Positions 3,830-52,857 of a DNA stretch of 64,000 nt are shown one piece after another (within the stretch, counting starts at the first letter, position 1; every line of letters starts with the position of its first letter). The stretch spans positions 9,820,501-9,884,500 of the forward strand of contig CM027377.1 of assembly GCA_015680905.1 (NCBI GenBank). Direction: 5' to 3'. Made by a program: the position numbers and the translations under genes. The DNA comes from Coptis chinensis. Its lineage: Eukaryota; Streptophyta; Magnoliopsida; Ranunculales; Ranunculaceae. Below the pieces are notes generated by a model. That model ran no database searches. It was not told where the DNA came from and saw only the letters and a list, made by a program, of their open reading frames with translations.

Positions 3830-6340
3830 CAAACCACTGAGACAACACGACGTACCTAGAGCGCAACAACTAAGTTTTCAGCTGTGCTTATGCTACAAAA
3901 TAGAAAAACAAGCAACCACTGAGAACATACTTGTACAAAAGACAAGGAAGAGTTCATGGAAGAGTTTGCTCTACCCTCAAAGACAAGGACCAAAGACGGG
4001 TACAATCCTCTTCTAGATGACTTCAAGAATACAAAATATCTTATGATATACATAACTCAAATATAAAACCACCACTTAACATCACATTCTAAAAAAAAAT
4101 CGGCAAAGTTTTTTTTGTATTTTCAACATTTCATAAATTTAAAACCTGTCATAACCTGAAAATCAAATAATATACTTCCATAACATATATTAAAACCTCA
4201 TACCTCATAAACCCAAGTACCCAACTACTCAAATATATATTGATTCGTAGAAAAAAAAAAAAAAAAACAAAAAGTAGATGATCTTGCTGCTGCATTTCGA
4301 CATAAAAACATTATATATAGTGGAGTTTGATATCCAGGGTCGTCATGGTGCAAGCTGGCTATGAATGGTACGTAGCCTGACTTGACTCACTTGAGAAGCT
4401 TTTTAGTAGAAGATTGTAAGTATTTAAATAAAAAGACAACTTGCAATTTAAAAGAATGAAGGAGACCCTAATCGTAATGTCTTCAAATGCAAATTAATCT
4501 CTTTCAGTTTAACTCATCTATACAACTTGCATTGTTTTATGTTACAGTCTTGACCAAACACAAAAAATGGAGAAATATTATATAAAGGCAAAGTTTCTTC
4601 CACCACTACGTCTATTTCTAATATTCCATCACTGTCTTTGACAAAACATACCAGGAATGATAAAATCTTCAAATGCTTAAACCGGTATGCATTTAGGTAT
4701 TGGTCCTTAAAAAAAGTTCACTGGATAGACCCGAAACCAGAACTCAATTTAATTCCCACTTGGAATTGAATAGAGAATATTTGAACCTTATTTCTTACCA
4801 TTGTCAAATTACTAGATTACACTTGCCGGCAACATATATTGAAATAGTCTAGTTCTAGTACATTCCCTTGCGACCATCAAAACCACTCTCTTACAAACAT
4901 CGATAGTGTCATACCTATATTCCATCATAAATGCCCCTACGAAAACTACAGTGAATTGCCGACGGATCCGCTAGTCTATATATATTATAAGAACAAACTT
5001 TTATGCCCAACTGCTTAGGTGCAAAGTGTACTCCTAAGCATCTCAACATACATGAATTGTCGATGGATCCGCTAGTCTATATATATTATCGTCGCAAGTC
5101 ACAGAGATTACTACCATGTCTTGCAAAACCAGAAACTGGACTACTATGGTGGTTAGTGGCATAGGAGAAGGTTTGGTATTAAACACTTAGGGATAAAATA
5201 TGAGGAATATTCAAGGAATCAGCGAAATGGTTGAAGATATATAAAACATGTTGAAAGTTGAAATAGATGTAAAATAGATAATGCTGAAGCGCATACATAC
5301 TCCATATCCAGTAACATCACCAATATGCATATATTGTTAGAGTGAATGTATGCATTTTTGTTAACTGTTTTTAGCAAACAGACGCTCTATCCACTGATCT
5401 ACAAGCGCATGTTCTTAAGAGTTCAAAAACTATTTTTCTCAAGGATTTATCACATCAAATGGTGTCTACCAAAAAAGACATACATAACATTCTCACTTCA
5501 ATGAAATGCTATATGGTTGAACAACAATAACACGGTTTAAAACAATAAGAAAACATAAATCCAGTCATATTGAAGTAGACTCACTTCCAGGAACCTGTAT
5601 TTTTGCTTGGATCTAGCCAACAAGAGCTTCTTCAGCGAGGCAATTCTTTCTCTAGCTTCATATACAAATGAGAAAGACAAAAAATCAAAAGAGATCATGC
5701 ATCTCTATTTATAGGTCCCCTACACAAATATACAACAACAATTAACGTAGATACAAACATGCCGCCTAATACCATTTGACAAACTAGCATACTACTTGGC
5801 CATTAAAGGAGTGCTACAACAACCGAACCAGCATGCAACATTTTGGTCATTGGCACTACGAAATTTCACCATTTACTAACTCATCCATTCAGTACAAGTG
5901 AATCAGTTTTGTACCTAAAAGACCTTCATATATAGTTCTAAGTCATTGAAAACCATTATAGGGTACAAATATGAGAAATAGTATCGGCTACAAACAAAAT
6001 GATGATTTCATCTAACACACCAAAGCGTATCCCAGAACATGCTACATCTAGCTGCTTCTTGCTCTTTCATCACTTTAACAACGCTAGGAACCATGCATAA
6101 GCTTTCAAGCAAGCAATTAACATATATATGTCTTAATATATGCCACAATCACGAGTTTCCGAATTGTTATCTGGCCCTAGCTATTAATACATCGACTTTT
6201 AAGAAATCAATTTTTCTAAGTCAATAATCAATGACTTATATCAGTCAGTGAGTGCTAAAACAAATAACAATATTTAGAGTTGGTGCTAAAACTCCAGTAA
6301 CAGACCTCGGATCACATTCATTATATAGCAATTACAATCT
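3830..6340. other. AT-rich intergenic DNA without a supported gene
   Basis: Short open frames here have no family signal. Two things stand out: a poly-A run near 4250-4268, and a 40-base sequence around GGATCCGCTAGTCTATATATATTAT present twice about 100 bases apart (4955-4990 and 5056-5090). A short minus-strand stretch near 5585-5670 can be read as a lysine- and leucine-rich helix but I could not place it in a family. Confidence 0.5.
5365..5408 (-). repeat. 5' half of a tRNA-Arg-like sequence
   Basis: The reverse complement begins GCGCTTGTAGATCAGTGGATAG and continues AGCGTCTGTTTGCTAAAAACAG. This closely follows the acceptor 5' strand, D arm with A box, and anticodon arm of plant tRNA-Arg genes. 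No T arm or B box follows, so it is not a working tRNA gene. It is either a truncated tRNA pseudogene or the head of a tRNA-derived SINE. Confidence 0.45.
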
Positions 6341-6347
6341 TTTATCA

Positions 6348-6906
6348 GGGACATCCATGTCTTGCCCACATACAAATGGCCGAGACTAGCAAAGACTTAT
6401 TAAAGCAAAGACATCCCTAATGGAGTCCAAATGCTATTCGGTTCCGCTATGATGACCACAAATGCATTGGATAACACTGACGACACCATCAAAGACATTG
6501 GGGACAATTACCGTGCCTCAAGTCCTCTAGCCATGGGAGTTGGTCATGTTAACCTTAACAATGCACTAGAACCTGGACTAATTTACGATGCAAATGCAGA
6601 AGACTATGTTAACCTCCTTTGTTCCTTAAATTACACCATGAAGCAAATTCAAACAATTACTAGGACCTCTACTTATAATTGTTTGAACAGTTCATCTGAC
6701 CTGAACTACCCTTCTTTCATTGCCTTCTTCAATGAAAATGTTACATCCTCAGATACTAAAATTGTGAAATTTCAAAGGACGGTGACTAATGTGGGGGGTG
6801 ACACATCGACTTATACTATTACATTGACACCCTTGGATGGGTTTAAGGTAACTGTCATGCCAGACACGTTAAAGTTCACAGAGAAGAATCAGAAGTTAAA
6901 TTACTA
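6348..6906 (+). pseudogene. Subtilisin-like protease (SBT) 3' end, truncated
   Basis: The region from 6348 reads GTSMSCPH, the conserved box around the catalytic serine of plant subtilases. Damaged sequence corresponding to the helix after it follows (HP...WSP), with a frame change. From 6431 a clean 158-residue frame carries SAMMTTNALDNT, then SPLAMGVGHVNLNNALEPGL, YDANAEDYVNLLCSLNYT, DLNYPSFIAFF and FQRTVTNVGGDTSTYTITLT. These are the end of the peptidase S8 domain and the fibronectin III-like domain of the SBT1 group. The catalytic Asp and His regions, PA domain, signal peptide and last part of the Fn3 domain are absent; the frame ends after FTEKNQKLNY. Intact plant subtilases are about 750 residues. 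The piece must be inactive as a protease. Confidence 0.85.
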
Positions 6907-18994: not shown

Positions 18995-21442
18995 ATGGCG
19001 GAATCTTCATCTGTAATTCCAACACCACTTTTGAAAGATGAGCTCGATATTGTGATACCAACAATCCGAAATCTGGAATTTCTGGAAATGTGGAGGCCAT
19101 ATTTATCACCATATCATTTAATCATTGTTCAAGATGGTGATCCCACCAAAAAAATTCATGTACCTGAAGGATATGATTACGAGTTGTATAATCGTGATGA
19201 TATTAATAGGATTTTGGGTCCTAAAGCTTCTTGTATTAGTTTTAAGGATTCTGCTTGTCGTTGCTTTGGGTATATGGTTTCTAAGAAGAAGTATATTTTC
19301 ACCATTGATGATGACTGCTTTGTAAGTATATTTTTTTTTTTTTTGTTGTAAAAATGCCATCTTTTTTGCAGTTTTGAATGATGGGGGTTGTGGGATTTGG
19401 GTTAGAAGTGATAGAAATTAGTGTATTTTGTTTTGGCGGGAAATGGATCTAGCTGGGTTTATGGGGGATCTTAAGTTTTGAGTAGATTTATTAGATTTTG
19501 ATGGAATTGCATTTTTTTTTTTTGGAAATTTGGATCTGGTTTTGTTGTTGTTTTTTTTTTTTTGCATCAGTTCAATTTTAAGTTACTGTAATGCCTGCAA
19601 AATTAGCAAATAATTTGATCTGTTTTTCTTTTGGTGAATTCACGTTTTTGTTAACCCCCTCTTAATAGTTTGTGTAGTTGAAGGAGTTACCAATGTGTTT
19701 TGTCTTTTAGAATTATTATAATACTAATGGTAGTTATTTTATTTGTATTATTTTGTATTGTTTAGCATTGGTATTGAATTGTACATTTTGGATTCTTCTT
19801 TCCTACACCTGTATGTTATTGCATCTGACCTTTGAATTTGATAGCCGGCATTGGCAGCTTAAGGCGTGTTCAGATCACAATAGATCCGATGTCGTAATTA
19901 CATGAACATATTTCTATTGTTAAATTTTGCGAGGTTTACATTAAACAATTTGATTGGGATCTAATGATAACAATAAAAAATAATGCTTATTGCATATAGG
20001 AAAAGAAAATGGATGAGATCTAGCTGTTGTGAGGTAGATTTTCTAAACTATATTTTCAACTATTTGATATGTCGGTGCTGATCTCTAGTTTGAAATTTGA
20101 ATTGAAGATCAGGGGAATCCAGCTGTTTTGAGTTTGTTATTGTGTTTAAGAGCTGTCTAGATCAATCTCCTACTTTTTTGATGCATCATGCTACTTTACA
20201 TGATTAGTGGAGTTACTTGGCTTTTTGAGTTTGTTGCTATAAAATGTCAGTTCGGGTTATGGTCCCCACATTGTAGAAGTGAAATATCAATTTGTTTTGA
20301 TTGGTAGTCTGCTGGCACCATCCCATCTAACTCACAATTTACATGAAAATGTTGATTGTGTCCTTGGGGTCTTTATTGTGTCTTCATGTACTGGCTAGTC
20401 ACGTATGCAATGTGATCTAAACTTTTAATTTGGTGATATAAACTTGAATATAGTGGTGATTTAAACTTGGGACCTCCACTGTTGTATAGGTTGCTAAAGA
20501 TCCATCGGGCAAAGATATCAATGCTCTTGAGCAGCATATTAAGAATCTTCTTTGTCCTGCCACCCCATTTTTCTTTAACACTCTCTACGATCCATACCGA
20601 GAAGGTGCAGACTTTGTCCGTGGGTACCCTTTCAGTCTCCGTGAGGGTGTACCTACTGCTGTTTCTCATGGACTCTGGCTCAACATCCCTGACTATGATG
20701 CCCCTACTCAACTCGTGAAGCCTCGTGAGAGAAACTCTAGGTATGTATATTTTTCAGGAAGCAGATGATTATATATTTTTTAGTGCTGTTAATTAAACTT
20801 AATTCGTATTATCTTTAGGTATGTAGATGCAGTTTTGACAATTCCCAAGGGGACATTGTTCCCAATGTGTGGCATGAATCTGGCATTTGATCGCGATCTC
20901 ATTGGCCCTGCAATGTACTTTGGACTCATGGGTGATGGTCAGCCAATTGGCCGTTACGACGATATGTGGGCTGGATGGTGCACCAAGGTACTCCATATTT
21001 ATTTTTCTATATTTAAAGTTATCTGTGCGGAAATAGGCTTGCTTAAATAAAACTCATTTTTTTCTAACATGTGCGAGTTAATCCGGTATTATGTTTTCTG
21101 TAGGTGATATGTGATCACTTGGGACTGGGTATCAAGACTGGTCTTCCTTACATCTGGCACAGCAAAGCAAGCAACCCATTCGTGAACCTCAAGAAGGAAT
21201 ACAAGGGTATTTACTGGCAAGAAGAGCTGATCCCTTTCTTTCAGTCTGCAACCCTTCCAAAGGAGTGCACAACAGTTCAGGCTTGCTACAAAGAACTGTC
21301 AAAGCAGGTTAACGCTAAGCTTTCGAATGTGGACCCTTACTTTACCAAGCTAGCTGATGCCATGGTTACATGGATCGATGCTTGGGATGAGCTTAACCCA
21401 CCATCTAAAGGAGCAGCTGGAATAGCCAATGGCAGTGCATAA
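18995..21442 (+). CDS. UAM/RGP: UDP-arabinopyranose mutase / reversibly glycosylated polypeptide, four exons
   Basis: Exons are 18995-19321, 20490-20740, 20819-20987 and 21104-21442, all with GT-AG introns (1168, 78 and 116 bases), giving 361 residues; the family is about 355-365. The enzyme interconverts UDP-arabinopyranose and UDP-arabinofuranose for cell-wall arabinan and arabinoxylan synthesis; RGPs are soluble and associate with the cytosolic face of the Golgi. Visible motifs are [20 protein letters not shown] near the N-terminus, the DDDC metal/nucleotide-sugar motif at about residues 105-108, [19 protein letters not shown] with Arg160 in the position of the self-glycosylated arginine (Arg158 in studied RGPs), and the WxGWC segment (MWAGWCTK). 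There is no signal peptide or membrane segment, as expected. The ATG follows AAAACA, a good plant context. It is the one intact host gene in the window; parts of intron 1 and of its 3' flank recur near 30.4-32.6 kb. Confidence 0.96.
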
Positions 21443-21628
21443 GTCAATCACCAGCTTTGATTAACAAATCTATCCCTTGTCATCCTTAAATTGGACTTCG
21501 TAGCTGCTTAATTATTGCAATTTCCTATTGTTTTCCCCTCGAAGCTTCTATTTGGAAGCTTGGATTATTTTTTGCAGGTTGATGGATGTACTCTTTATCT
21601 TTTTTCTATGAGGCTTAGAACAAATAAG

Positions 21629-22755
21629 TTATATTTTGACATTATGTCACACGTTTTATAACAAATTATAGTTTAGTTTTCTTTACGAAAAGCAACTCTG
21701 AGAATGTCTGTCAATGTGTCGTAATCTAATTTTCATGGTACGGTATTCGGCTATTGTGATGGAGCCTCTATTACATCGTAAATTCACTGCGGAGAATTAC
21801 AACAACGGGAGCATCTACTTTCCTGTCAGACAAAAAAGTGTAAGGGTGGTCTTGGTTCTAAAGTCTCAAATTTACGTAGCAAAGCCTTCATTTCACTTGT
21901 TGCAATAAGTCCTAACTTCAGATCATCAACTTCCACCTCGTGGAAGAGTTGTTACAAAGCAAAACCCTCGTCGCATCAAAGTTACTGACTGGAAACTAAC
22001 TAGCATTATATTTTCTAGACAGTTCTCTCAAGACGAAGTGGAAAGAAAGACATTAAAACTTCAGAATCTGTCCATAATGAGGCTTTCATCATTAGTTGGT
22101 CGACCCATCAAACAAGCAAATCTAACTTGTCGGATTCAGGGGTCAGTTATTTGCAAATTTGGCATTGAAAAGAGGCAAAGTGATCTTTTCATTGCTACAT
22201 GGACTTAGCACTAAGAGCACACAACGCAAAGTGAACTTAGCAATGAAAAGAGGAAAAAAGAATAATCAAAACAGGGAACCGTTGGGTGATTGCCGCTGGT
22301 ACGTGTCTCCAAAACCATTTAGTATACCATAGGGATGTTTTATTTTGTGAAAGAAAAAAGGATTTGCTTTGTCCTGTAGGCGCGTTCAACTCCTATGCAA
22401 GGATGTTTGGTTGAATCTCTAATTCTATGATTCTGTTCAGGACTGATTGAGCTAAGTGTTAAAGAACCACCACCACTGAATCAGCCACTGCTTCACACCA
22501 CAAAACTCACAATCTTCAACCAAACAAACAAATTAAGGTAAACCTTTCAGCTTTCTATAGTATAAGTACTCCGAAAACCAAAGCAAAGAAGTAAGACCCA
22601 CCCTGATTTTATTAATGGCAACCAAAACAGAACAAAATCAATGCAGAAGGTTCTCGTTCGTGGACTAAAGAGAACCAGATGATCACTGCGGTTGGAGAAA
22701 TAGTTATCATCACATCCGTTGTTGTCAAACAACACTAACAATAACATTAACTTAC
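21629..22755. repeat. Segmental duplication, copy A (RGP 3' flank to F-box 3' end)
   Basis: From the segment TATATTTTGACATTATGTCA onward this sequence is closely repeated at about 30505-32795 and continues at 54579-55010. Shared landmarks include the TCTGAGAATGTCTGTCA block, GTAAGGGTGGTCTTGGTTCT, the GGTCGACCCATCAAAC block, AATCAAAACAGGGAACCG, and CTTTCAGC...ATAGTATAAGTACTCC. In copy A it has neither of the large insertions found in copy B. The site matching the hAT-like insertion is the single GAAACTAA at 21992-21999. Confidence 0.85.
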
Positions 22756-22760
22756 AAAGC
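22480..22760 (-). pseudogene. 3' end of an F-box (FBA-type) gene, copy 1
   Basis: The minus strand encodes LLLVLFDNNGCDDNYFSNRS followed by DHLVLFSPRTRTFCIDFV. The same string recurs at 54930-55010 and, more changed, at 56390-56520. In those copies it lies at the C-terminus of an F-box-associated (FBA) domain relic. Only this terminal piece is left here; no F-box or central FBA part is found upstream toward 23200. Confidence 0.6.
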
Positions 22761-23230
22761 CCTCACGAATACAGAACTCACAAACTGACCCTCTTATAAT
22801 ATGTACTTGAGAAAGGGTTAACACAACGTGATCTATTAGAAAAAGGGATAGAAGAAAAGAGGAGGAAGAAGACCGGTGTAAGGATGTAGACATGTAGTCA
22901 ACCATACAGATCTCAATAGAAACAAACCTACTACAAAAGAGATATGGAAACTCGGATATGAGAAAAATTGGAAACAATGGAATATCAAGAGCTATGACTA
23001 ACTGTAAGAAAACTGAGACCCATGGGTGGAGAACATGCATGAAAACCCAAGAGAACATTAGGTACACAAGGTAGGGATTATTCTCCATCTTCCTTAAGTG
23101 GTGTTGCTCATTTCTTGGAATGGAAAATATATAAGCATCTAAAGAGTAGTGTCATAATAAAACTGGATGTCATAGGTACACAAGAAACTGGATTGAGAGG
23201 ACAAAATTTTCTCTTACTATATAGATTAGC

Positions 23231-24580
23231 TCACATAGTCACATAGAGGACAGGCACCAACCCTACCAATTTTCCATCTCTTCCTGGTCGCTTCTTCTTC
23301 ACCTGGAAATGCAATAAACAAAAATTCAAATGACTCAGGCAGACACAATAAATCATCAACATCTATATAATTTCTTTAAAAAAATTGCAATAGAGAGGTT
23401 AGCGGTATTACATAGAACCAACCATCCACCTCATAATCAATTTCAACTTCTTCTCCTGCTGCCAAGTTTACCTGCACAAAGAACAACTTGATTAAACCTA
23501 TGTCTCCCATTGGAAACACTCTATGCTTAGGTTTCACTAATAGATGCCACCAGGAGGTAACAATCAAGCTCTTAAGTCTTAACATTGTCTTACCTCATCG
23601 TCACCACCAGCAGTGAAGTCATAAAGTGCTTTCGCACACTGGGGGTTTTCGGACAAAGGTGGCTCCTCATCATCCCGTGATCCAAAACTACGTGCTCCGC
23701 TTCCAGCCATGGGGTTCTCAAAAGACTCAAATCTCTGCATTACTGATGCTTCATACGATGGAGGTTCTTCCCGAATCTGAACAGGTACCCTCGGTTAGAA
23801 TTGTAAATGGCTCATCTAATCAAAATACATACCGTCACCTATTGAAAAATGAGTAAAGCTATGAGTCTGACTCGCAAACCAACGCCCTCGAACGTTGATG
23901 AAGCGCCAACAGGGTTGCTAAATCTGCTAGCAGCTGCTCCTGACCTCTCCTGCCATGGCGAATTACAGTGGCGTGATAAATATCTATGATGCAAAATTCG
24001 GAAACATGAGGTCAAGTGTGACTAAAGTTACTATCCATCCCTGTTTTATAAAATTCACTTTCTAGAAGTGGTATTCTCTGGAAATATCCTGTGGTTAATC
24101 AAACACAAGCTAAGTGAACAATGTCCAAATTTGAAACAGGTAGGTACGATGCCTCTCCTCCGATTCTTCTCAAGAATTGACTCAAATTACAAAGTTTCCT
24201 CATTGTACCCATAGTTTATCAAAATGATAACTAATAATGTATGCAGAAGGTAATAGTGCTTGCAGCTAAATACCGAGGATTGAGGAGCCCCATAATTGGA
24301 CGGTTTTGAACTGTGTAAGGATGGGTAGCTCTTTCCACCAAAATGAGATGATATTGAAGTCTCGACTGATCCTGTTGACTCAGGAGATGACGTTCCTGAT
24401 GACCTCGCATCATCTTTTTGCAGTGATGCATTTTGTCCTGGGTGGGAGTTACCAGAATCAATTTTGATGCTCTCTCTTTTCAGATCATTAGGAATGATCT
24501 TGGAAGGTGGTCTGGATGTAGAACTCGAACCAGAATGAACAGAAGTGATCCTGGTTGAATCTTCTGCTCTCCCTAGAGAG
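23231..24580 (-). CDS. SH3-domain protein C-terminal exons (TASH3-like), probably 3' part of a chimeric gene
   Basis: Five exons on the minus strand join without frame change: 24580-24274, 23949-23884, 23776-23594, 23471-23412 and 23302-23231 (stop TGA at 23233-23231). The first four end at GT donors and all five start after AG acceptors. They encode a Ser/Pro-rich low-complexity stretch (SSTSRPPSKIIP, SSGTSSPESTGS, YPSLHSSKPSNYGAP), then REEPPSYEASVMQRFESFEN, then an SH3 domain: ALYDFTAGGDDE, LAAGEEVEIDYEVDGWFYV, and GLVPVLYV before the end. ALYDF, DGWF and the final VPxxYV are the SH3 ligand-groove landmarks. From memory this resembles the C-terminus of TASH3, the SH3 subunit of the plant TPLATE endocytic adaptor complex; the roughly 1000 residues normally upstream are absent. 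The kinase exon takes their place. It could be a pseudogene fragment, but it shows no stop or frameshift. Confidence 0.7.
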
Positions 24581-24681
24581 CTGTCCACAGGTGAAAATAA
24601 AATTAGTCGCGATGTCTCACATAAATAAAATAAAGTTGGACCATATATTTGATTCAAATTAATTTCAGAAAATTTTCATAC
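24581..24681 (-). other. Predicted 101-base intron joining kinase to SH3 exons
   Basis: On the minus strand GAAGG|GTATGAAAA at 24682/24681 is a good donor and GTGGACAG|CTCTCT at 24581/24580 a good acceptor, with a T-rich interior. Removal joins phase-2 GAA GG to C TCT CTA GGG and reads EG-SLGRAEDSTRITS with no frame break. Retention gives a stop eight codons later, after YENFLKLI. Confidence 0.6.
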
Positions 24682-25664
24682 CCTTCAATAATGGCAGGAG
24701 AGAATTTTGGGAGTGGTCGAACCACGTTGCTCTCAGGAGAGTCGTCGTAAAAACCAAACGGATTGGGTGGCTTCTCAAGTCTCATTTCACCCCTGAGCAT
24801 CTTCACCACACTACTCATGTCAGGCCGCTGGAAGTGCTTTTCTTGAGTACACCATAATGCAACTAAAGATAATTTCTCTGCTTTTTCTTTATTTTTTTCT
24901 TCGATGCCACACACCAAAATAATTTCGTCTAGTTCATCATTCTCAACTTTTATCGCAACTTCTCCAGGAAACCACCCCGGGCCTACAGAATTCCTTTTCT
25001 TCCTCAAAATTTCAAACAACATCATTCCAAAACTATAAACATCACTTTTGTAAGTTACTAGTCGTCCCTTTCCCACCTCTGGGGCAGCATAACTATTGGT
25101 TCCTCTGTATCCTGATTGCTTGGCCTGACTCGAATGTCTAGCCATTCCAAAATCTACTATCTTAGGAGAATAGTTTGAGTCAATAAGCACATTATCGGGT
25201 TTTATGTCATAGTGGATTATTCGTGGACGACATTCCTCATGTAAAAAAGAGAGCCCATCTGCTATCTCAACTGCAATATTATACAACTTCTCCCATTCTA
25301 TATCAACGTGATGCTTAAACAAAATCTTGTCCAATGACCCGAATTTCATGTATTCGTAAACAAGTGCTTTCATGTCGATATCAAAGCAATACCCGTATAG
25401 CTTGATTAAGTTTGGATGGGAAATACTGCCCATCGTGCTCACTTCAGCCATGAATTGCTTGATCATTACATCCTTTGTGTTCTCTTTCAATACCTTAACA
25501 GCTATTTTGACACCGTTAGGAAACTTTCCTTTATAGACGTCTCCAAACCCACCAAAACCTACATTCTTCTTGAGATTTGATGTAAAGCTCTTAAGTTCCT
25601 CGTATGAAAAGAGTTGTGGTGTCCCGTATGATAATCTTTGCGAGTCATCATCACGCTCTTTCAT
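24654..25664 (-). CDS. Receptor-like (cytoplasmic) protein kinase, LRK10/S-domain-like class
   Basis: The uninterrupted 336-residue frame is almost entirely a Ser/Thr kinase domain. It shows the glycine loop GFGGFGDVYKG (36-46), Lys57 in IAVKVLK, Glu74 of helix C, the catalytic loop HYDIKPDN (151-158), DFGMAR (171-176), AAPE (193-196) and the RPDMSSVVKML C-lobe end (280-290). The catalytic loop has Tyr where RD kinases have Arg, so it is a non-RD kinase, a type common in plant immune and LRK10-like receptors. All catalytic residues (K57, D153, N158, D171) are present. There is no signal peptide, ectodomain or membrane helix; an in-frame TGA three codons before the ATG closes the frame upstream. 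It therefore reads as a cytoplasmic kinase or as the last exon of a lost receptor. The tail after residue 300 (PPNPFGFYDDSPE) is close to the family pattern. Splicing at codon 328 would fuse it to the SH3 exons downstream. Confidence 0.9.
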   Translation of the reverse strand: MKERDDDSQRLSYGTPQLFSYEELKSFTSNLKKNVGFGGFGDVYKGKFPNGVKIAVKVLKENTKDVMIKQFMAEVSTMGSISHPNLIKLYGYCFDIDMKALVYEYMKFGSLDKILFKHHVDIEWEKLYNIAVEIADGLSFLHEECRPRIIHYDIKPDNVLIDSNYSPKIVDFGMARHSSQAKQSGYRGTNSYAAPEVGKGRLVTYKSDVYSFGMMLFEILRKKRNSVGPGWFPGEVAIKVENDELDEIILVCGIEEKNKEKAEKLSLVALWCTQEKHFQRPDMSSVVKMLRGEMRLEKPPNPFGFYDDSPESNVVRPLPKFSPAIIEGYENFLKLI

Positions 25665-25669
25665 TTCAG

Positions 25670-26285
25670 GTCATACAATGTAGCTAAGGTAGTCGTCCAA
25701 TCAAGTAGATTGTGGAAGAAAGAGTGATATATAACAACGGCATGACAAAAACCAATAAGACTCAAATAATGAAAATGAGGAGGATATCAATAAGGAGCCT
25801 GATGATGTATATGTTTTCCAATAACTTCAATCAACTAGATAGTTTTGCAAATGATCTGGATCCGACCTCCCCCAACCCACAACACAAAGTTTCCCCGAAA
25901 TATTTCCATCAATTTATGAATGAAAATTGATAAAATTTTAGTTATAAACGAGCATAAAATGGCTGGTTTAGCATTCAACATAGACAATATATACTTTGCC
26001 TGTTGTCTATTGTTTTCATACACAAATACAGTTCATAGCGAATAGCAAATATAGGCTTGGACACATACCAAAATTACCAGATCGAGTGAAGATCCTCCCT
26101 GTGTGATTATTATGTTCAGACTTTTGAAGGCTTCTTTCCTCTGTGGAGACTGGAGATGGAGTTGGGATTAGGCAGGATAAATAAGTTACGTGCTAAGCAA
26201 TTGAATCTTCAGTGCTAAAGAGGAGACATACTACACTCTATTGTGGAGTATTTCTTTAATGCAACTTGACAACTTGTGATCGTTA
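25670..26285. other. Intergenic DNA upstream of the kinase
   Basis: This is where a receptor ectodomain and membrane exon would be expected on the minus strand, but no frame shows a signal peptide, GUB_WAK, lectin or thaumatin-like domain. The short frames at 25712-25930 (+) and 25835-26023 (-) overlap each other and are not supported. Confidence 0.5.
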
Positions 26286-26948
26286 GAGTATACCAAAAAA
26301 AACACCAAAATTTTTAACCAAAAAAACACCAAACAACTTCAATTTCTGGAGCAACATCAAATTTTCGACATCAAACTAAACGGTTTTGGATAAACCGCGC
26401 CACTAAAGCCCAATTGACAGGCCCAAGTTCACGCGGTTTTGAGAAAACCGCGTGGTGTTCTGAACATCTCATGCTACTTTTATATAATCAGGACCAAATC
26501 CGCGCGGTTCAATCACTTTCAACTCTTCTCTCAATTATAAACCTTCTCCTTAGTAAAAAAAAAAAAAAAACCTATCTAAATTCTTGAAATTTTATATAGA
26601 TCCTTTTGAACCTTTCAAGGGTGATGATTGACAGTTACGACATTGGCAATGAGGGAGAAGAACCCGAGGAAGTATAATACGGTGGGGGAGAAGACGGTGA
26701 GGGAGAAGAACCCGAGGATGTCGCGCCGACTGATAGACATTCCTATGTACTGGAATATCATATGAACGATTTCGATTGACAATTTGCACCCAGTGAAGCA
26801 CATGATATGGAAGTTGTATCTTCTACACATGATACAAAACACGTGTCGAGTGCAGTGGCTAATACTCAAGTAATTAATTAGTTTTGATTAAATATTTTGA
26901 ATATTATACATTATCTTATACGCATTATTTTTTTTTTCATAATATCAG

Positions 26949-27779
26949 CATGTTATTGACTACCGAGTTAGATCGGCTTTACTTGGTGTTAGAGAGTGGT
27001 GGAAGGTTATTAAGAGTTTGGATGAGTTTGTACACATTAGAGATAGTACTTTGTATACACCTTTGGGTCTTTTGGTTGACGTGGATTATGAGAAGGCTAA
27101 TTGGGCAGTGGTCATAGCTTTAGTAGAAAGATGGTGGAGTAGAACTCATACATTTCATTTCCCTTATGCGGAGTTAGGGTTCACACCACTATACTTCACT
27201 ATGATTTCTGGGTTGAGTATCGGTATAGGCCAACCGATACCTTTTCATACAAATTATGAGAATATGGATAGTATGCTTATGAGTTTTCCTCGCTTGGATG
27301 CGGATGCTTATGATTCTTCTGGTATTAAGCTATCTCATATTAAGACTGCATATATGGAACCCCTCTTGGATCCTGATACACGAGCGGAGTTAGCTTTGAC
27401 TGTTTTACCTGGTAGTGAGGGTGTTGATGTATATGTTAGGGCTTTTTTGATGTTTTTTATTGGGCATTATCTGTTTCCCAATGGTCATTCTACAGTACGA
27501 CTGAGATATTATGCTTATGTATCTGATTTGCATGCTATGAGAGATTATGACCTAGGTAGCTCAGTATATGTCACATTGATAGCAGCGTTAGATAAAGCTT
27601 CAAAGACATTCAGAAGTGGAAGTCCTCAAATTGCAGGATTCACAAGACTTTTAGAGATTTGGTTTTATGAGTACTTTCGAACTCTTTGTCCTAACATAGA
27701 CATGATTGCTGATACTCGCCCTAGATTTGGTAGTTGGTCAAGGCCTCACTTGACTTGTAACGAGGCAGGGGCGAAATAA
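26949..27779 (+). CDS. Plant mobile domain (PMD, MAIN/MAIL-like) protein, transposon-borne
   Basis: From a CAG acceptor at 26946-26948 one frame runs 276 residues to a stop. It reads HVIDYRVRSALL, RERWWKVIKSLDEF, then LVERWWSRTHTFHFPYAEL, GFTPLYFTMISGLSIG, a middle part with LLDPDTRAELA, VYVRAFLMFFIGHYLFPNG, and FTRLLEIWFYEYF. The WxxxTHTFHxPxxE pattern and the aromatic helices are those of the plant mobile domain of MAIN and MAIL1 and of transposon copies. MAIN/MAIL proteins act in nuclei in genome stability and transposon silencing; the role of transposon PMDs is not settled. No ATG precedes the domain before 27018, so the start probably lies in an upstream exon; an acidic stretch at 26620-26870 is a candidate but is broken. 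The kinase locus and this gene are separate units. Confidence 0.8.
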   Translation, partial: HVIDYRVRSALLGVREWWKVIKSLDEFVHIRDSTLYTPLGLLVDVDYEKANWAVVIALVERWWSRTHTFHFPYAELGFTPLYFTMISGLSIGIGQPIPFHTNYENMDSMLMSFPRLDADAYDSSGIKLSHIKTAYMEPLLDPDTRAELALTVLPGSEGVDVYVRAFLMFFIGHYLFPNGHSTVRLRYYAYVSDLHAMRDYDLGSSVYVTLIAALDKASKTFRSGSPQIAGFTRLLEIWFYEYFRTLCPNIDMIADTRPRFGSWSRPHLTCNEAGAK

Positions 27780-27959
27780 TAATGTCCGTATGGCTCGTCT
27801 TTCGATTGATATTATATCATTGTCATCTATTGAGTGGAGACCTTGACATTTGTCTACTGCCTTTGATGATCTAGTTGTGCAGCATGCTTGTGTGTTGTCA
27901 CGTCACAGAGTTGTTTTTGTTGCACGTGACTGTAAGTTTGGTATTATGACGACAGATGT

Positions 27960-28966
27960 TGAAGGCAGATGACTGGACGTTATGGAGTTCCATGTGCTCC
28001 CATGCCAGATGTTAGTGATGCGAAGTCGTGGGATAGAACTCAAGTTCATGAAGTTCATGCCAGTGGTGGTCCTTGGCAAGATGCGTCTTCTTTTGTTGTT
28101 GAGCAGACTGCTGATCAGTGTTATAGATGGTGGAACCATGTCTCAATGGGTCCGTTGTTGCCCCCTGTTGGTCGGGCTAACAACTTCGAGTTTGTGGGCC
28201 TGGAAGGGATGAGACGTGAGTTACGTATTCCTCATTCGCCACAGCCTGTTTACAACCCACAACCTCTGAATGCATATCATCCAGCTCTTGTGTCTGCCAG
28301 TAATCCTCAGATGTTTGCCGTGTGTGGACCTAATGGGGAGGCTACTTACATTTTCCATTCCTGAGGTGCCTCGTGCTCGTTGCCATGAGTTAGAGCCGCA
28401 GATTGATCAAGATACCACCACGTAAGTTTAGTTATTTTATTTTTCTATTCATTATATATATATATGTATAATATTTTTTGGATTTTCAGCCTCACAAAAG
28501 ATGTATTTTTTGGGGATTTTCATTACTAGTGTATGCCCGCGTGATGTCTCGACGCGACCTATTTGGGAAAAATATGAGAACCATGATGCTTTGTATGTTT
28601 GATGGGATTTTGAATGTTGATTGTTCCATCAAATGTTAGATGAACCAGGTTGGAAAAAAGGTTGGATCCGTGATGGGAGGAAGAGTTGGAGGGAAATTGT
28701 TATATAGATAGGCAAGAAAGGGAGGAGACATATTACAATCCCAACGTGCGTATGACGAGACTCAAAAAGTGTATGAGAATATTCAGCAGGTGTACACACA
28801 ACAACATCAGGGATATGAGGAACTTCAAGCTGAGGTAGTTAACCTTCATGCAGACAGAGAAGATCTTGATTCTCAGGTTAGGAACTTAGAGGAGCAACTT
28901 GGGAATATCCAAATAGAGAGAGGAGAGGGATCGAGTGGTAAGGGGCGTAAAAAGACAGCTAAATAA
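27960..28966 (+). pseudogene. Decayed downstream part of the PMD gene with a coiled-coil end
   Basis: A frame at 27969-28364 reads MTGRYGVPCAPMPD, WDRTQVHEVHASGG, QTADQCYRWWNHVSMGP and PPVGRANNFEFVGLEG, which looks like the region after the PMD core in transposon copies. A second frame, 28769-28966, is a heptad-patterned coiled coil with a basic tail (DLDSQVRNLEEQLGN, then GKGRKKTAK). Several stops and frame changes lie between these parts (for example the stop at 27777-27779 and frame changes near 28365-28700), so a single protein spanning all of it is unlikely. Confidence 0.5.
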
Positions 28967-29479
28967 ATTTTATGTAATATAATAGGTTTTGGATAATTTT
29001 GGATATTATAACACTTATCGTAGATTTTGGATTGCACAATTCTTAATTTTTTAATTTCTTTAATTTTTTCGATTTTGGATCACAATTCTTAATTTCTTCA
29101 ATTGCACAATTCTTAATTTCTTAACTTCTATGCACAATTCATAATTCTCAAATTCTAAGTAACAGTTCTAATTTTCAGAAAAAACGCACGCGGTGTTGGC
29201 AAAACCGCGCCAATAGAAGCCCAAGCCCAGTGTTAGCAAAACCGCGCTATATAAGCCCAATTAGAATATATAGCCTACGCCGTGTTGGGAAAACCGCACA
29301 GTTTTGGCAAAATCGTGAGTGATTTGATACAACACCAAACCTGGAACCAAATATTGGCCGATTTGGTGTTTGGTTTGGTGTTTTTTTGGTGTTTTTATCA
29401 ACTTGTAACTCTTCTGAAATTGAAATTTGGTGTTTGATGCTATGTTGATATCACTCCTCAAGATGCTCTTAGAGATCAA

Positions 29480-30409
29480 ATATTTGGCTTAAAAATTGGT
29501 TATCTCTATCAAATGCATTTGTTATTTAAATGAGTTTTCAAGTCATGTTTGAGCTATGTAATGTAAACTCAATGAATTATCATCAACCCGTAAACTCGTG
29601 TTTTTTCGTAGATTTTCTGTTGTAAATACAGTAACAATTGCTATTGTTGGTTCCTCTGTTTTTCTCCCGTAAACGATTGATTAGTTCATAAATCATACTT
29701 GTGGATGATGTGAAAGCATCGGTTTTAAATCTGTTTTGATTCCAATTTTGAATTGAATATATTTGGAACCAATCATTTTAGTTCCCAGACAACTGTAAAA
29801 TTTAGTAAAAAATAGGTTTATTTAGTGTATTGTATTTCAAAAGAAAGTAAGTACAGATCTCAGTATCTCACATGCAAATATGCAATCCTCTCCCTGCCTC
29901 TGCGAGTCTGCGTTGACACCAAAATATAACTAGAATATGGGAATATGGCCACTGTATTTTAATATATTTTATAACTACAATATCCGACTGTATTTTATTT
30001 CTACGCAGTGGCCTAGTCAAATTGCAGTTGGGGACTATGTTGATGTTTTTAATTTTTTATAGCACAAGCACATCTGCACATGGTTGTTGGGACTTGGGGT
30101 TGTATACATCAAGCGCAAGCACATAATTCACATTGTCTGATTATTCAATTATAGGGATGGGAGCAGTATACAACACTTTTGATAGAACGGAGTAACAGAC
30201 CATGCAATAGGCCACTACAAGATAAACAAAATTAAGGCTGACATTTTGTGAAAATGGTCTTAATTACTACTATAGAGATTATTTCTACAAAATTTCAGTT
30301 CTTTCGAAATGTCTGCAATAACATTAACCGGTTCAGCATCGACGTTCTCTTATTACACAATTGACATGAGAGTTTTTCATATTATTTCTGATCAAATAAT
30401 ATGATTTAG
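29480..30409. other. Intergenic DNA
   Basis: No gene is supported. CACTACAAGATAAAC at about 30212 resembles a CACTA terminal repeat, but no partner end was found. Confidence 0.5.
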
Positions 30410-30480: not shown

Positions 30481-30504
30481 ATTTAGTTTTATAATGTAAA
30501 ATAA

Positions 30505-32795
30505 ATTATACTTTGACATTATGTCACACGTTTTATCACAAATTATAGTTAAAGAAGTTTTCTTTACAAAAACTGCAACTCTGAGAATGTCTGTCACTAT
30601 GTCCTAATCTAATTTTCATGGTACTGTGTGTGGTCTATCATTATTCTTGGCAAAAATCATATATACTCTCGGTATTACATCGTGTGCGCCTTTCCTGAAA
30701 TCTTTGGCTGACAATGGTTTAGGTCGTTTGATCAACACTGTACACTATTTTTTGAAGGTCTTGTCTGCGGTTACATACAGTATTCGGCTAGTGTGATAGT
30801 GCCTCTATTACATCTTTTTTATCAGAGGTCGAATAGATCATCAGAAGAGAATTAATTAGGCCAAAAATTAGGATACATCATAACTTCACTGCAGAGAATT
30901 AGTGCAGCGGGAGTACCTACTTACCTCTGTCAGACAAAACAGTGTAAGGGTGGTCTTGGTTCTAAAGTCTCAAATTTACAAAGCAAAGCGTTCATTTCAC
31001 TTGTTGCAACTTCTAACGGACGATAAGTCCTATCTTCAGATCATCCACTTCCACCTCATGGAAGAGTTATTGCACAGCAAACCCCTGGTCGCATCAAATT
31101 TATTGACTGGAAACTAAGGGTGGGAATTTGGCCCTAACGATTCTAACCCGGTCTTGACCGACCCGACCTTAATTCCTATAAAGCCCTCACAGAGTTTAGG
31201 GTAGGGGGCCTAGCCGGCCTAGCCCTAATGCCTTCTAGGGCAGGGCTAAGGCTAATGTTCTAAAACATAGGCCCGACCCTAATTCAGTCCTCATTAGTCC
31301 GGCCCTAACCAATCTCTAACTAGCCTTGCTTCACAATTTCACTATAAATACACATACGACTATAATTGTCCAACTCTTTGTTAAATATTTTCAATTAAAA
31401 TAACATTGTATTTTGTAATTTATCACTTACACCCAAAGATACTTCCAATAACTTATTTTATATAACAAAAACTTGTCAACTTAGCAGCTATGAAGAACAA
31501 TGAGCACTAGCCTAATAAAAAATAAGACTTTATTCCTTTGATCATCAAGTCAAAGTCCAAAACTTATTATTCTCAATTTCTTTTCCCACTTACTTCTTAT
31601 AAATTGTATTTTTATTCACATCCAAGACAAGTCTAGAACTAAAAGTTTCCTTCCACACCATTAAAGCGAAATACAGAGCAGACATTTGTAACATAGAAAC
31701 CAAAAAACAAATTTTGTCAGAAAAATGACATTTGTAATCTCAAACCTTAACTTTCTCCATCGCTTGTTCAAAAAGCCAATATTTTCATTTTCACATACAA
31801 AGCTTGAATCATTTTTAAATTAGAAGAAAGATAATATTATATTTGTTTGAATCTATTATGGAAACAATTTATGATATTAGAAACAGTTTAACAACTTCCC
31901 TGGCCCTTACCCAAAGCTATTCTGTTTCTTCTTTATATTTATTACTTATTCTTTTAAAATGATAATATAATTATTTGTCTATGTATTTAAATGTTAAATA
32001 TAATTTTAGTGAGATTTGAGTACAAGGAAGAATAAATTAATATTCCGAATTCTCGATGTACTTCAGTTCATTAGATTGTGGATGTGCATTTTAAATTGTT
32101 AGACTTATCCAGGATTATTACTAGTTGGTGGGACTTTGAGTTTGTAGATTATTGTACATTTTTGTAATATAAATGAGTTTTAAAACTGATGTAATAAAAA
32201 GAAGAAAATATATAGGCCCAGCCCTAAAGCCCGGCCCTAAAGCTTTTAAAGAGGGCTTAGGGTAGGATCAGGGTTGAGATTTAGACTTGTGACTCGGCTC
32301 GACCTGGCCTTAATATTTGAAGGGCTTTAAATGGTTTGGGCCGGGCTAGCCCGACCCGGCCCATTGCCCACCCCTAATAGAAACTAACTAACATTATATA
32401 TATTTTCTAGATAGTTCTCTCAAGACTAAGTGGAAAGAAAGACATTAAAACTTCAGAATCTGTCTATAATGAGGCTTTCATCATTAGTTGGTCGACCCAT
32501 CAAACATGCAAATCTAACTTGTCGGATTCAGGTGTCTGAGTTAACTGCAGATAAGTTCATTTAGCACTGAAAACAAAATCAAAACAGGGAACCGCCGGGT
32601 GAATGTGGTTGTTATGTTTGTGTGTCTCTGATTAAGCTGGGATGCAGGCTATATAATGTAATAAACTAAAATGAATATCTCAACTAGAAAAAGAGAGAGA
32701 AAAAATAAGTATATGCATGAGTAATAACAAACCAATCTCTGAGTTGGAGAACTACCACCATTGAATGAACAACTACTTTACACCACATAACTTAC
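30505..32795. repeat. Segmental duplication, copy B, left part
   Basis: It follows copy A (21629 onward) in order, with about 150 extra bases near 30620-30780 and one large insertion at 31118-32379. It is cut at 32795 by the LTR element and resumes at 54579. Confidence 0.85.
31118..32379. mobile_element. hAT-like non-autonomous element, about 1.26 kb
   Basis: The left end GGGTGGGAATTTGGCCC and the inverted right end TATTAGGGGTGGGCAATGGGCC are related. The 8-base GAAACTAA stands on both sides (31110-31117 and 32380-32387). Copy A of the duplication has the same site once without the insert (21992-21999), which is direct empty-site evidence. Subterminal parts are full of GGCCCGACC, CCCTAA and TAGGG units. 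The middle is AT-rich and non-coding. Confidence 0.88.
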
Positions 32796-33226
32796 TGTAG
32801 ATGTTGGCTATTTTGGGACTACGACCTGATTATTTGTTGGATAGGGAATGGCTGCACTCTTCTTGGGATAAGAGTTGCCTATGTATCAAGTTTCTCGGGG
32901 TAAACTTGAATCAAGCCTTACGTAGTTCATCTCTTCCTATTTGTAGATGTGTGCTTGAACTGTTATGGATTGCAGATCCACCTTGTATGCTATCTTGATG
33001 ATTCACCATTACTTTGATGTTACAAAGTAAATGTCTCCTTGATTGTTGCATTGACTGAGCTCCAGAATTGCGCTAGTTGATATCTTTCCATGAATGGTTG
33101 TAACTGATGTTGGGAATGACCTGGGTGTTGGGTCGTTGGTACGATATGATGTTGTGGGACGAGCTGAAATAAGACGTCCTGCCTTGTGGACACGTGCTCT
33201 GTAGTGTAGAACGGAGGGTACTTACA
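32796..33226 (-). repeat. LTR of the outer element (3' LTR in element orientation)
   Basis: Begins TGTAGATG and ends TTACA; matches 54148-54578 throughout with scattered substitutions. The inside-facing edge carries the purine-rich tract of the element when read on the minus strand. Confidence 0.93.
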
Positions 33227-33529
33227 CAACCCCCTTTTTTATCTGTTCTTTGGATAGCTGTTGCGTGGAACAAGAACGGTTTAAAAAGTAAAGTTTGAAA
33301 GCACGTGTCTGATAGCTGTTTTGTTTTGAATTTAGGTTTTAGGGAATGTGCGGGAACTGTTGGACTGGATTCGTGGGCCTGGAGTAACAACGATTTGTAG
33401 GCGAGTAATGATTTAAGTTTTGGAAACACGAAACGTTTTGATTGTCTCGAGGTGTTTGGGCAGTTGAGGGGTTTTTGACTTGTTAGAAGCTTTTTGTTTG
33501 TTCACTTTTCAACCAAAGGAAAAAAATAA

Positions 33530-35845: not shown

Positions 35846-36575
35846 TGTGTGTGCATATTTTAGCAAATAGATATGTAGCACGTGGTAGCATCTTCGTAAG
35901 GCTCGGATATGGTCTTGGTGTGGGTAGAAAGTACCAGAACACACTTCAAGTCCAAATCCTCTTACTTCCTAGGTTCGGAAGTGAAATAAGAAGAGGAGGT
36001 TTGGAATTGGTTGGAATAGGCTCGGAGAACTAGAGGTTCGGAACCGGTTGGAGTAGTAGGCTCGGAGAACTGGAGGTTCGGATCTAGTTCGAAGCCAGAA
36101 GCTCGAGAACCAACTCCCCGACTAGGAACACCAAATCCGAACTACTAAGTTTGAAACTCCAACTCCCAATCCAACCTAAAACATGTTTTTTCTCGTTGTT
36201 TAAGTCAATAAAGGAGACCTATTTGACTTGGGAAACATGGGGCTTCTAGAAGAGTCAAGATGAGACTTAACAAGAGACGGTCTCCTAGTTAAACACTAAT
36301 TGGGAAACCTCATCTATTCATCAAGATGATACTTAACAAGAGACGGTCTCCTAGTTAAACACTAATTGGGAAACCTCATCTATTCTTATAAATAGAATAG
36401 TTGAACTACGCTTTGAGTTTGATTCCTATACACAGGATACGTAGGCAACCATTAAAGAACGTGGTTCAACTCATCATCTTCTAAATCTCTTCTTCTTATT
36501 GATTCAATACTTCTAGTTGTTCTTTGATCATCAACAAAATATTTGTGTTTCTTGATTAGGAAAAATCATCACACA
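35846..36575 (+). repeat. 5' LTR of the inner element
   Basis: It includes a promoter-like TATAAATAG near 36398 and a tandem repeat of about 68 bases (CTTAACAAGAGACGGTCTCC to CCTCATCTATTC, around 36268-36395) that is present in both LTRs and so is older than this insertion. Confidence 0.9.
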
Positions 36576-36739
36576 ATTGGCTACCGCCCCAGGGGAACTA
36601 TACAGAATTGATTTGATTTCTTGGTCGAAATTTTTTCAGTTCTAGGTTCTCCTACCCACCGATTTTTTTTTTTTTTTTTTTGGGTTAGTTGTTCTTTAAA
36701 AAATATATATATATATTTTCTTCACTTTGATTCAAAATC

Positions 36740-48026: not shown

Positions 48027-48745
48027 TGTGCATATTTTAGCAAATAGATATGTAAAGACGTGGTAGCATCTTCTTAAGGCTCCTGATATGGTCTTGGTGT
48101 GGGTAGAAAGTACGTAACACACTTCAAGTCCAATCCTCTTACTTCCTAGGTTCGAAGTGAAATAAGAAGAGGAGGTTCGAATTGGTTGGAATAGGCTCTC
48201 GAGAACTAAAGGTTCGAACCGGTTGGAGTAGTAGGCTCGAGAACCGGAGGTTCGATCTAATTCGAGTTGTAGGCTCGAGAACCAACTCCCGACTAGGAAC
48301 ACCAAATCGAACTACTAAGTTTGAAACTCCAACTCCCAATCCAACCTAAAACATGTTTTTCATTGTTTAAGTCAATAAAGGAGACCTATTTGACTTGGGA
48401 AATATGGGGCTTCTAGAAGAGTCAAGATGAGACTTAACAAGAGATCTCGGTCTCCTAGTTAAACACTAATTGGGAAACCTCATCTATTCATCAAGATGAT
48501 ACTTAACAAGAGACGGTCTCCTAGTTAAACACTAATTGGGAAACCTCATCTATTCTTATAAATAGAATAGTTGAACTACGCTTTGAGTTTGATTCCTATA
48601 CACAGGATACGTAGGCAACCATTAAAGAACGTGGTTCAACTCATCATCTTCTAAATCTCTTCTTCTTATTGATTCAATACTTCTAGTTGTTCTTTGATCA
48701 TCAACAAAATATTTGTGTTTCTTGATTAGGAAAAATCATCACACA
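48027..48745 (+). repeat. 3' LTR of the inner element
   Basis: It matches 35846-36575, including the TATAAATAG box and the 68-base tandem repeat. Differences from the 5' LTR are concentrated in the first 280 bases and are mostly one- or two-base length differences. Confidence 0.9.
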
Positions 48746-48750
48746 ATTAT

Positions 48751-49020: not shown

Positions 49021-49379
49021 CTGAACGACTTGTGCCTGTCTTTGGTTGGGAGGTATTGAACAATATTTAAACAGCTCTTTGTTCTTGATACTGATACAAT
49101 ATTATTTTTGATGGGGATACTGAGGTCGTTTTCCCGGGATAACCTGGGGTCTCGGTATCTAACCAATTTTGTAAGTAGAAATATTTAAATTACTTACTTG
49201 TTGAAGTTGGCTTGGAGTATCCATGTGATTGCTTCTGTTTTGACTGACTTGTTGTTTGACGACCTGTGCTGCGTAGTACTAGTCCTGATGGACTGCTTGA
49301 CTTTGATAGGTCGTCTTTTGTCATAGGTCGTAAAGCGTTTAAGTACAACCTGATGCATTTGCGTAGTTGGCACCTAGGT

Positions 49380-49680
49380 GTACGCCCTGATTCGTTCCTT
49401 TTGGGGAAACTTCTGATTGATATAATTAGCCTTTGAGTGACTATTATATTTGAGTCTGACTTAAACCATTTGTGAGGTCGTAAGTTGACTTGGGGTCCTT
49501 TTGGGGGTCCCCTAGATTGAATTTGTCTGATAATTGGCCTTTGAGTGGCAATTACAGTTGAACCATACCTAACCCTGGAGTTGGTGTTAGGTTGGTTTAG
49601 GGTCCTTTTGGGGGACCGTGATTTGAATTGATTGAAAAGTAACCATTGCGTGGCTGTTGTTGTTGAGTCGTTCTGAACTC
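49380..49680. repeat. Degenerate tandem repeat, units of about 120 bases
   Basis: GGTCCTTTTGGGGG(A/T)CC followed by TTGAATTG...GGCCTTTGAGTGGCAATTA recurs two to three times with changes, downstream of the outer element's integrase region. Confidence 0.6.
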
Positions 49681-49829
49681 CGTCTTTGATATCCGACCTG
49701 ACATTGTGATGTCTTAGGTCGAGCTGCATAGTGTGACATGCAAGTTGCTCATGTAATGCAAAAATGATAGCTGCACTCAAAATGTCGATGAGATTTCATT
49801 TATATTGACTTATGTACTTGGAGAAAAAC

Positions 49830-51050
49830 TTATTGATAAAAGAGCTTGAGGAGAGCTGTATTCCAAGGTCGGGGAAGTCTATCACCGAGCTGGGTTTTGA
49901 TCCAATATGCACCATTTCCAACGACTTTGTCAACAATATAGGGGCCCTCCCATGTTGGGTCGAGCTTGGCTGGTGCTAAAGTCTTTTTGAGGACTAGGTC
50001 GCCAGCTTGGAAAGATCTTGGGACGACCTTCTTGTTGTAAGAACGTTGGATTGTTTGGTGGTACCAAGCTAGGGATATTGCGGTAGTTTCTCGACGTTCT
50101 TCTAAGAGATCCACTTCTTTTGCCAAGATGTTGTCATTGACTCCTGATTCAACAATGTCAGAACGCGTGTAGTTGTGATTGTGAGCTTTGATGGTATCAC
50201 TGCTTCCGTTCCGAAGCAAAGTGTGAAAGGAGACTCATTTGTATTGGATCTAGCTGTTGTTCTGTACGCCCATAGAATGTTTTCGAGCTGCTCTAGCCAT
50301 TGGCTTTTCTTGCTCTCCAGCTTCTTTTGGAGATTTTCTTTGATGACTTTGTTGGTGGCCTCGACTTGGCCATTGCTTTGTGCATATCTAGGTGTAGAAA
50401 ATGCTTGAGTGATGCGCCATTTTTGTAGAAAATCCTTGACTTGTGTGCCAGCAAATTGTGTTTCGTTGTCCATGACTAGGGTGTGTGGTAGACCAAATCT
50501 AGTGATGATATTAGTCCAGATGAAGTTGATTACATTGACTTCCTTGACTTGGACTAGTGGGATTGCTTCAACCCACTTGGTGAAGTAATCTATGGATGCT
50601 AGAACGTATTTGATCCCTGATTTCTTTTGTGGGATGAATGGTCCCATGATGTATAGCCCTAACATGTGGAACGGCCATGGGCTGGCTATGTTGATCAATT
50701 CTCTTACTGGACTTAGGTGATTGTGACCAAAAGTTTGACATTGGAGGCATTTAAGAACGTACCTTTTTGCCTCGATATGCATGCCTGACCAATAATATCC
50801 TTGGGCGATTGCTTTGTGTGCCAGTGATCTTGCTCTTGCGTGGTTGCCACATTCACCTTTGTGGATTTCGTCGAAAATGAGTTGTCCCTTCCTTGGAGTT
50901 ATGCATCTTAGGAGGGGTCCTCCTGCTGATTTGTGGAACAGTCTTCCATTGATCACTGTGTATCTTGGTGCTTGGAGTTGGATTGCACGAGCATGCTTTG
51001 CTTCTGGTGGGATCTCACCATGTAAGATGAACTTGAGGAATGGGCCCATC
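49830..51050 (-). mobile_element. Integrase region of the outer element
   Basis: The minus-strand frames show the zinc-finger part (YVLKCLQCQTFGHN), the catalytic core with VEAIPLVQVKE and FGLPHTLVMDNETQF, FSTPRYAQSNGQVEATNKVI, and a C-terminal part with FQAGDLVLKK and WEGPYIV, as in Ty3/gypsy integrases. Confidence 0.85.
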
Positions 51051-51219
51051 CAAGATTGACTGATTTTTTCTTCAGATGAGGGCTGGAAATCTGTGAGGCT
51101 GTTGATATTTTCTTTATGGTAAGCAGGTCGTTCCAGAATGTCAATGTAGACTGTGGCTTGGACATGCTTCTTGTGTTTTGGAGGCTAGGAAAGCCAAGCT
51201 GTCTGCATGTCTGTTGTCC

Positions 51220-52800: not shown

Positions 52801-52857
52801 GAGCTTTTCTATCTCTTCGTTGATGACTTTTTGAGACTTGAGTGCTAGCTTCCTAGG

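Follow-up and report, generated by a model that had tools for sequence, protein, structure and literature searches.

According to the available part of PMC10260397, resistance genes of plants include kinase fusions as a recognised class; the Sr43 fusion is dated there to 6.7-11.6 My, and the idea of an integrated decoy is advanced for the wheat kinase fusions. TASH3, or TSAUCER, is described as a subunit of the TPLATE complex (AT2G07360) in the available section of PMC12111011. In Arabidopsis, its SH3 domain has been implicated in the uptake of ubiquitinated plasma-membrane cargo (excerpts of PMC13176895 and PMC12111011). The accessible text of PMC4031984 reports that the SH3 domain was added to plant TSAUCER by translocation, and gives the muniscins as another case of a TSET domain that moved.

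Here, we analyzed a gene of Coptis chinensis in which a protein kinase is joined to an SH3 tail. The gene lies in the window, a stretch of 64,000 nucleotides (C1:9820501-9884500), and searches were performed against the 935.6-Mb genome. The gene model occupies 25664-23231 of the minus strand and has six exons (25664-24682, 24580-24274, 23949-23872, 23776-23594, 23471-23412, and 23302-23231); all five introns have GT and AG ends. The spliced frame is open as far as the stop at 23231. In the 1683 coding bases, neither a stop nor a frameshift was detected, barring an 8-base tandem duplication at the end. The gene model thus bears none of the marks of a pseudogene (premature stops, frameshifts, damaged splice sites); only the last codons are shifted. 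The encoded protein has 560 amino acids with the acceptor GGACAG, and 556 with an acceptor 12 bases downstream (24568). The kinase open reading frame (25664-24654, minus strand; 336 amino acids) matched the Pfam family PK_Tyr_Ser-Thr (2e-48, residues 31-290), and the spliced tail matched SH3_9 near the C-terminus (E 1.1e-8). In this model, a complete kinase domain and an unrelated SH3 domain stand within one continuous spliced coding sequence, and the kinase-SH3 chimera, in frame to its stop, that the initial annotation had proposed was therefore recovered. When the genome was searched for SH3_9, no match was obtained there or in the controls, probably because exons split the domain.

Our reading, to which we give a probability of about 0.68, is that this locus is a real, young, in-frame fusion of a kinase with a TASH3 tail, and that it is probably a working gene in which the tail would aim the kinase. 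As described below, the sequence establishes where both parts come from, where they are joined, that frame and splice sites are intact, that the two halves have diverged to a like extent, and that the kinase is under purifying selection.

Exon 1 (24682-25664, minus strand) contains the start codon and the complete kinase domain, as indicated by Pfam, the motifs, and the identity with paralogs. The motifs GFGGFG, IAVK, HYDIKP (HYDIKPDN), DFG, and APE are at residues 36, 54, 151, 171, and 194, respectively. These catalytic motifs are those expected of an active kinase. Close relatives of solved structure were plant RLK/Pelle kinases, namely BRI1, BAK1, BIK1, and FERONIA chains (about 1e-34 to 1e-44), and the single best PDB entry was an EGFR chain, which matched in two weaker pieces. 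Judged by these features, the kinase is of the RLK/Pelle type and non-RD. Its nearest relatives are 3.2-3.3 Mb away on the same contig: 308 of 327 residues of exon 1 are identical to the gene at C1:6617547, and 310 of 327 to that at C1:6538760 (94-95%). In a tree of 10 sequences picked from the matches, the window kinase joined this pair; support was 99 for the pair, and 100 for the split of the window and the pair from the other seven. By the NG86 method, dN was 0.026 and 0.023 and dS was 0.170 and 0.163 against C1:6617547 and C1:6538760, respectively; the YN00 dS values were 0.128 and 0.116. An in-frame stop directly precedes the kinase ATG. Furthermore, a scan of 9 of the 24 open reading frames listed near the two closest paralogs, and of one window frame, revealed no ectodomain family. 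Thus, the kinase is probably cytoplasmic. The domains that did appear in the paralog scans were Ras in two frames and glutaredoxin in one; around the paralogous kinase of L050, the nearest kinase paralog, Ras-type frames lie upstream (26-1102) and a glutaredoxin-like frame lies downstream (6349-6690).

Exon 1 is followed by a 101-base intron (24581-24681, minus strand; GTATG...GGACAG), whose removal joins the flanking exons in frame. The initial annotation had regarded this intron as the junction between kinase and SH3 gene. Alignment and a scan of acceptors in the paralogs gave a different result. All seven kinase loci scanned, the window included, possess an AG acceptor after the homologous donor site, and it opens a Ser-rich exon; the scan kept only acceptors that open a Ser-rich frame, L051 was outside it, and the entry for L054 is doubtful because the frame ahead of the donor site reads differently. 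This evidence assigns both the intron and the Ser-rich beginning of exon 2 to the kinase family. In six of the seven loci, including the window, the homologous acceptor 12 bases downstream of GGACAG is in frame, whereas only the window and L049 keep the frame with GGACAG itself. Conservation among paralogs therefore favours the form of 556 residues, which is the length given in the initial annotation. In L050, exon 2 has a two-base gap relative to the window (around 4870-4990), and only the downstream acceptor kept the frame in the scan.

The position of the joint was located by a genome search with window positions 24700-23100. This query of 1601 bases split in two among the 22 matches, the window itself included. 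The first part matched the ends of other kinase genes: ten matches stopped exactly at query position 288 (24413), and eight further matches stopped at 203-230, 286 or 294. The second part, from query position 285 (24416), matched one locus only, C1:3040013-3041716 (three matches). When seven kinase loci were fetched, homology to the window ended at 24413 in six of them and at 24471 in L051. Kinase homology up to 24413 and TASH3 homology from 24416 overlap in four bases, AAGA (24413-24416, minus strand), which are common to the kinase paralogs and the TASH3 donor. In the donor, AAGA forms bases 2-5 of an exon and follows TTTTGTAG. The frame is kept across the fusion point (LQK|DDARSS). Exon 2 (24580-24274) is thus composite. 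Positions 24580 to 24413 resemble the kinase paralogs, the kinase-derived, Ser-rich part proper being 24417-24580 (GSLGRAEDSTRITSVHSGSSS...NASLQ); positions 24416 to 24274 resemble TASH3, and 24274-24412 is the part derived from the donor exon C1:3041717-3041571. Since the hand-over falls in AAGA inside exon 2, the fusion is a DNA joint within an exon and not a splice between neighbours. Chance is an unlikely explanation, given that this genome contains both source loci and that the two stretches of homology overlap by only four bases. The 101-base intron is ruled out as the fusion point, because the kinase paralogs have the same intron and the joint is about 165 bases further on; the splice first proposed, which keeps the frame, is nevertheless well supported by the paralogs. 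Likewise, the exon taken for the first SH3 exon begins as a kinase exon 2. No further copy of the fusion was detected in the genome search, in which counts for large families are lower bounds: only the window locus covered the whole query.

The donor is a gene 6.8 Mb away on the same contig, which we read as a putative TASH3 from its sequence and architecture. It is seen as a series of open frames on the minus strand, from C1:3053310 to about C1:3040150 (DSSGTTLMDLITSDPTTAPA through VLYVSQS*). Many open frames extend across about 13 kb, with the SH3 domain at the end; the body segments searched gave no Pfam or PDB match. The copied stretch of about 1.7 kb comprises five exons, four introns, and the 3' flank (22727-23230, minus strand), and donor homology ends at 22727. 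Splice sites and exon borders of the tail match those of the donor. Besides the second part of exon 2, the tail consists of exon 3 (23872-23949; ERSGAAASRFSNPVGASSTFEGVGLR), with splice sites at the donor's positions; exon 4 (23594-23776), where the SH3 domain starts (ALYDF at residue 506 of the 560-residue model); exon 5 (23412-23471), with the middle of the domain; and exon 6 (23231-23302), with its end and the stop, all on the minus strand. In exon 6, the 8-base duplication changes the donor's YVSQS* to YVTM*. Homology to the donor is confined to its last five exons, and the large N-terminal body of TASH3 is absent from the window gene. Of the 175 residues compared, 160 are identical; at noncoding sites, 145 of 1012 differ (14%, K 0.16). 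In the SH3 region, the donor reads PQFGKALYDF and WFH (L046, 7332-7826), and the window copy reads PQCAKALYDF and WFY. These results agree with the earlier proposal that the SH3 part came from a TASH3-like gene by partial duplication. A retrocopy is ruled out, because the tail retains four introns. The comparison with a TASH3 gene elsewhere, which had been suggested as a check, also rules out that the window holds a misplaced TASH3 gene, since the donor locus stands elsewhere on the contig and differs at 15 residues and at the noncoding sites given above.

The two halves are of like age. NG86 dS is 0.145 for the tail and 0.163-0.170 for the kinase, which suggests about 10-13 My at assumed substitution rates. 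On the window branch of the kinase, we counted 10 nonsynonymous and 13 synonymous changes on 805 and 203 sites (dN/dS about 0.19; binomial p 1.3e-4). These counts show purifying selection on the kinase branch over the whole period since its split from the paralog pair, but they are no proof that the tail is used. For the tail, NG86 gave dN 0.042, dS 0.145, and dN/dS 0.29, and YN00 gave dN 0.048, dS 0.113, and dN/dS 0.43. By our own reasoning, a free copy beside a frozen donor would be expected to show a dN/dS of about 0.5; the YN00 value is close to that of an unconstrained copy, and the NG86 value is lower. When neutral decay from the donor was simulated, frame and splice sites of the tail remained intact in 0.5% of simulations at a rate of 0.06 per branch and in 0.3% at 0.08. 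Taken singly, absence of a stop had a probability of 0.18-0.32 and absence of a frameshift 0.05-0.09. The probability of 15 or fewer amino-acid changes under neutrality was strongly rate-dependent: 0.25, 0.07, 0.009, and 0.0008 at 0.05, 0.06, 0.073, and 0.08 per branch. All tail tests exclude the last codons, which are frame-shifted by the 8-base duplication, and the differences are unpolarised (no outgroup), so that some may have arisen in the donor, in which case the tests are conservative. Constraint on the tail is moderately supported by these sequence comparisons.

The same data bear on the strongest competing explanation, that a functional kinase-only gene ends at the early stop, that the TASH3 fragment behind it is dead, and that the frame survives through the youth of the join. 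If the 101-base intron were retained, the product would be a kinase-only protein that ends in IEGYENFLKLI at a stop soon after the donor site. Constraint on the kinase does not require the tail, and the YN00 ratio of the tail fits a dead fragment. However, the intron is common to the kinase family and is followed by coding sequence, and frame and all splice sites of the tail are kept, which is the rare outcome under neutral decay. We regard this explanation as unlikely, at about one chance in five.

The DNA upstream of the gene bears on a second alternative. The kinase 5' flank (25665-26286, minus strand) is common to the paralogs at C1:6.54 and 6.62 Mb. It is interrupted about 0.63 kb upstream of the ATG by a multi-copy element (26291-29400, right end approximate) with an open reading frame for a plant mobile domain (27018-27779, plus strand), and resumes at about 29473-30054, as seen against the contiguous L050. 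Most of 26291-27098 recurs at 39 or more other genomic sites, a lower bound obtained by scoring 40 of 1279 candidates. Inverted stretches are present near the ends of the element (26317-26334 and 29373-29390). The insertion would suit a silenced or dying duplicate that is intact only through youth and whose promoter was cut off by the element, and the dN/dS of the tail is not extreme. On the other hand, the ratio of about 0.19 on the kinase branch (p 1.3e-4) and the coding sequence free of stops and frameshifts up to the terminal duplication argue against it, and about 620 bases of the shared 5' flank still separate the ATG from the element. A dying locus is thus improbable, with roughly one chance in nine. 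We found nothing to indicate that the assembly artificially united parts of two genes, and such an artefact is very improbable, since the source loci are present separately and the window copy differs from them in kinase exon 1 (5%), in the intron and 5' flank of the kinase (11-13%), and in TASH3 noncoding sequence (14%).

Returning to a working fusion, we propose the following origin. One copy of a non-RD kinase gene of the RLK/Pelle type would have lost the end of exon 2 and all beyond, and a fragment of about 1.7 kb, comprising the five final exons and the 3' flank of the TASH3-like gene, would have been joined to it at the four shared bases, possibly by end-joining. The chimeric cassette sits between two copies of a collinear direct repeat of about 1.1 kb, the first at 21622-22744 (plus strand) and the second, split by insertions, in 30499-32605 and 54577-54995; pieces are 84-93% identical. 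Downstream of the gene, TASH3 homology yields to the repeat sequence at 22727-22744. This arrangement may go back to a single rearrangement in which a break was repaired with fragments from around 3.04 and 6.5-6.6 Mb. Other features were also observed in the neighbourhood. The C-terminal part of a gene for a reversibly glycosylated polypeptide (RGP) lies at 20835-21442 (plus strand), convergent with the fusion gene. Two further pairs of direct repeats (32796-33227 and 54148-54578; 35850-36578 and 48027-48748) are 94-95% identical and surround long open reading frames that look retroelement-like by eye (49190-53981, minus strand); these are possibly nested LTR retrotransposons.

Because the joint keeps the frame, the predicted product of 556-560 amino acids would consist of the kinase, a Ser-rich linker, the TASH3 C-terminal linker, and the SH3 domain. 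If the gene is transcribed and translated, the SH3 and Ser/Pro tail may bring the kinase to the partners of TASH3, and the recruited kinase may phosphorylate endocytic machinery or ubiquitinated receptors. A lineage-specific, immune-type kinase working at endocytic sites, aimed by its tail at ubiquitinated receptors in clathrin pits or acting as an integrated decoy, is a tentative proposal that we ourselves think rather unlikely in its specific form. By analogy with the wheat fusions, the decoy would be the natural alternative role: pathogen tampering with the copied endocytic-adaptor tail would set the kinase off. If expressed, the gene would couple a kinase to a tail linked with the way in which plant endocytosis recognises ubiquitinated cargo, and this link is directly testable. 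The contig still carries both sources, the joint is placed within four bases, and age and constraint can be measured in parts that are still young.

A kinase fusion of this composition was not found in the literature searched, nor was a gene fusion with TASH3. Among described systems, the Triticeae kinase fusion proteins (Sr43, Pm4, Lr9, Snn3, and Yr36) are similar in that one gene encodes a plant kinase fused with an unrelated domain, and the age of the Sr43 fusion given in the available part of PMC10260397 is like that estimated here. The partners named in that part are START, C2 and transmembrane, MSP, NLR, vWA, DUFs, and PRT C, whereas the partner in the window is an endocytic SH3 tail. 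The fusion described here has no known resistance phenotype. Members of the kinase family elsewhere in the genome (C1:6.48-6.63 Mb and C4:3.31-3.33 Mb) share the kinase domain, the intron, and the Ser-rich beginning of exon 2, but in them exon 2 runs to an end of its own and is probably followed by another exon, where the window copy has the TASH3 tail. With TASH3, the gene shares the C-terminal SH3 part, in which 160 of 175 compared residues are identical to the local TASH3-like gene, but a kinase takes the place of the large N-terminal body. Finally, as in the TSET domain translocations described in the accessible text of PMC4031984, a TSET-derived domain, or this SH3 domain itself, moved to a new partner; those moves are ancient, whereas the fusion in the window is recent and has been observed in a single genome. 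Given the translocation of the SH3 domain to TSAUCER in plants reported there, the same SH3 tail would have moved twice.
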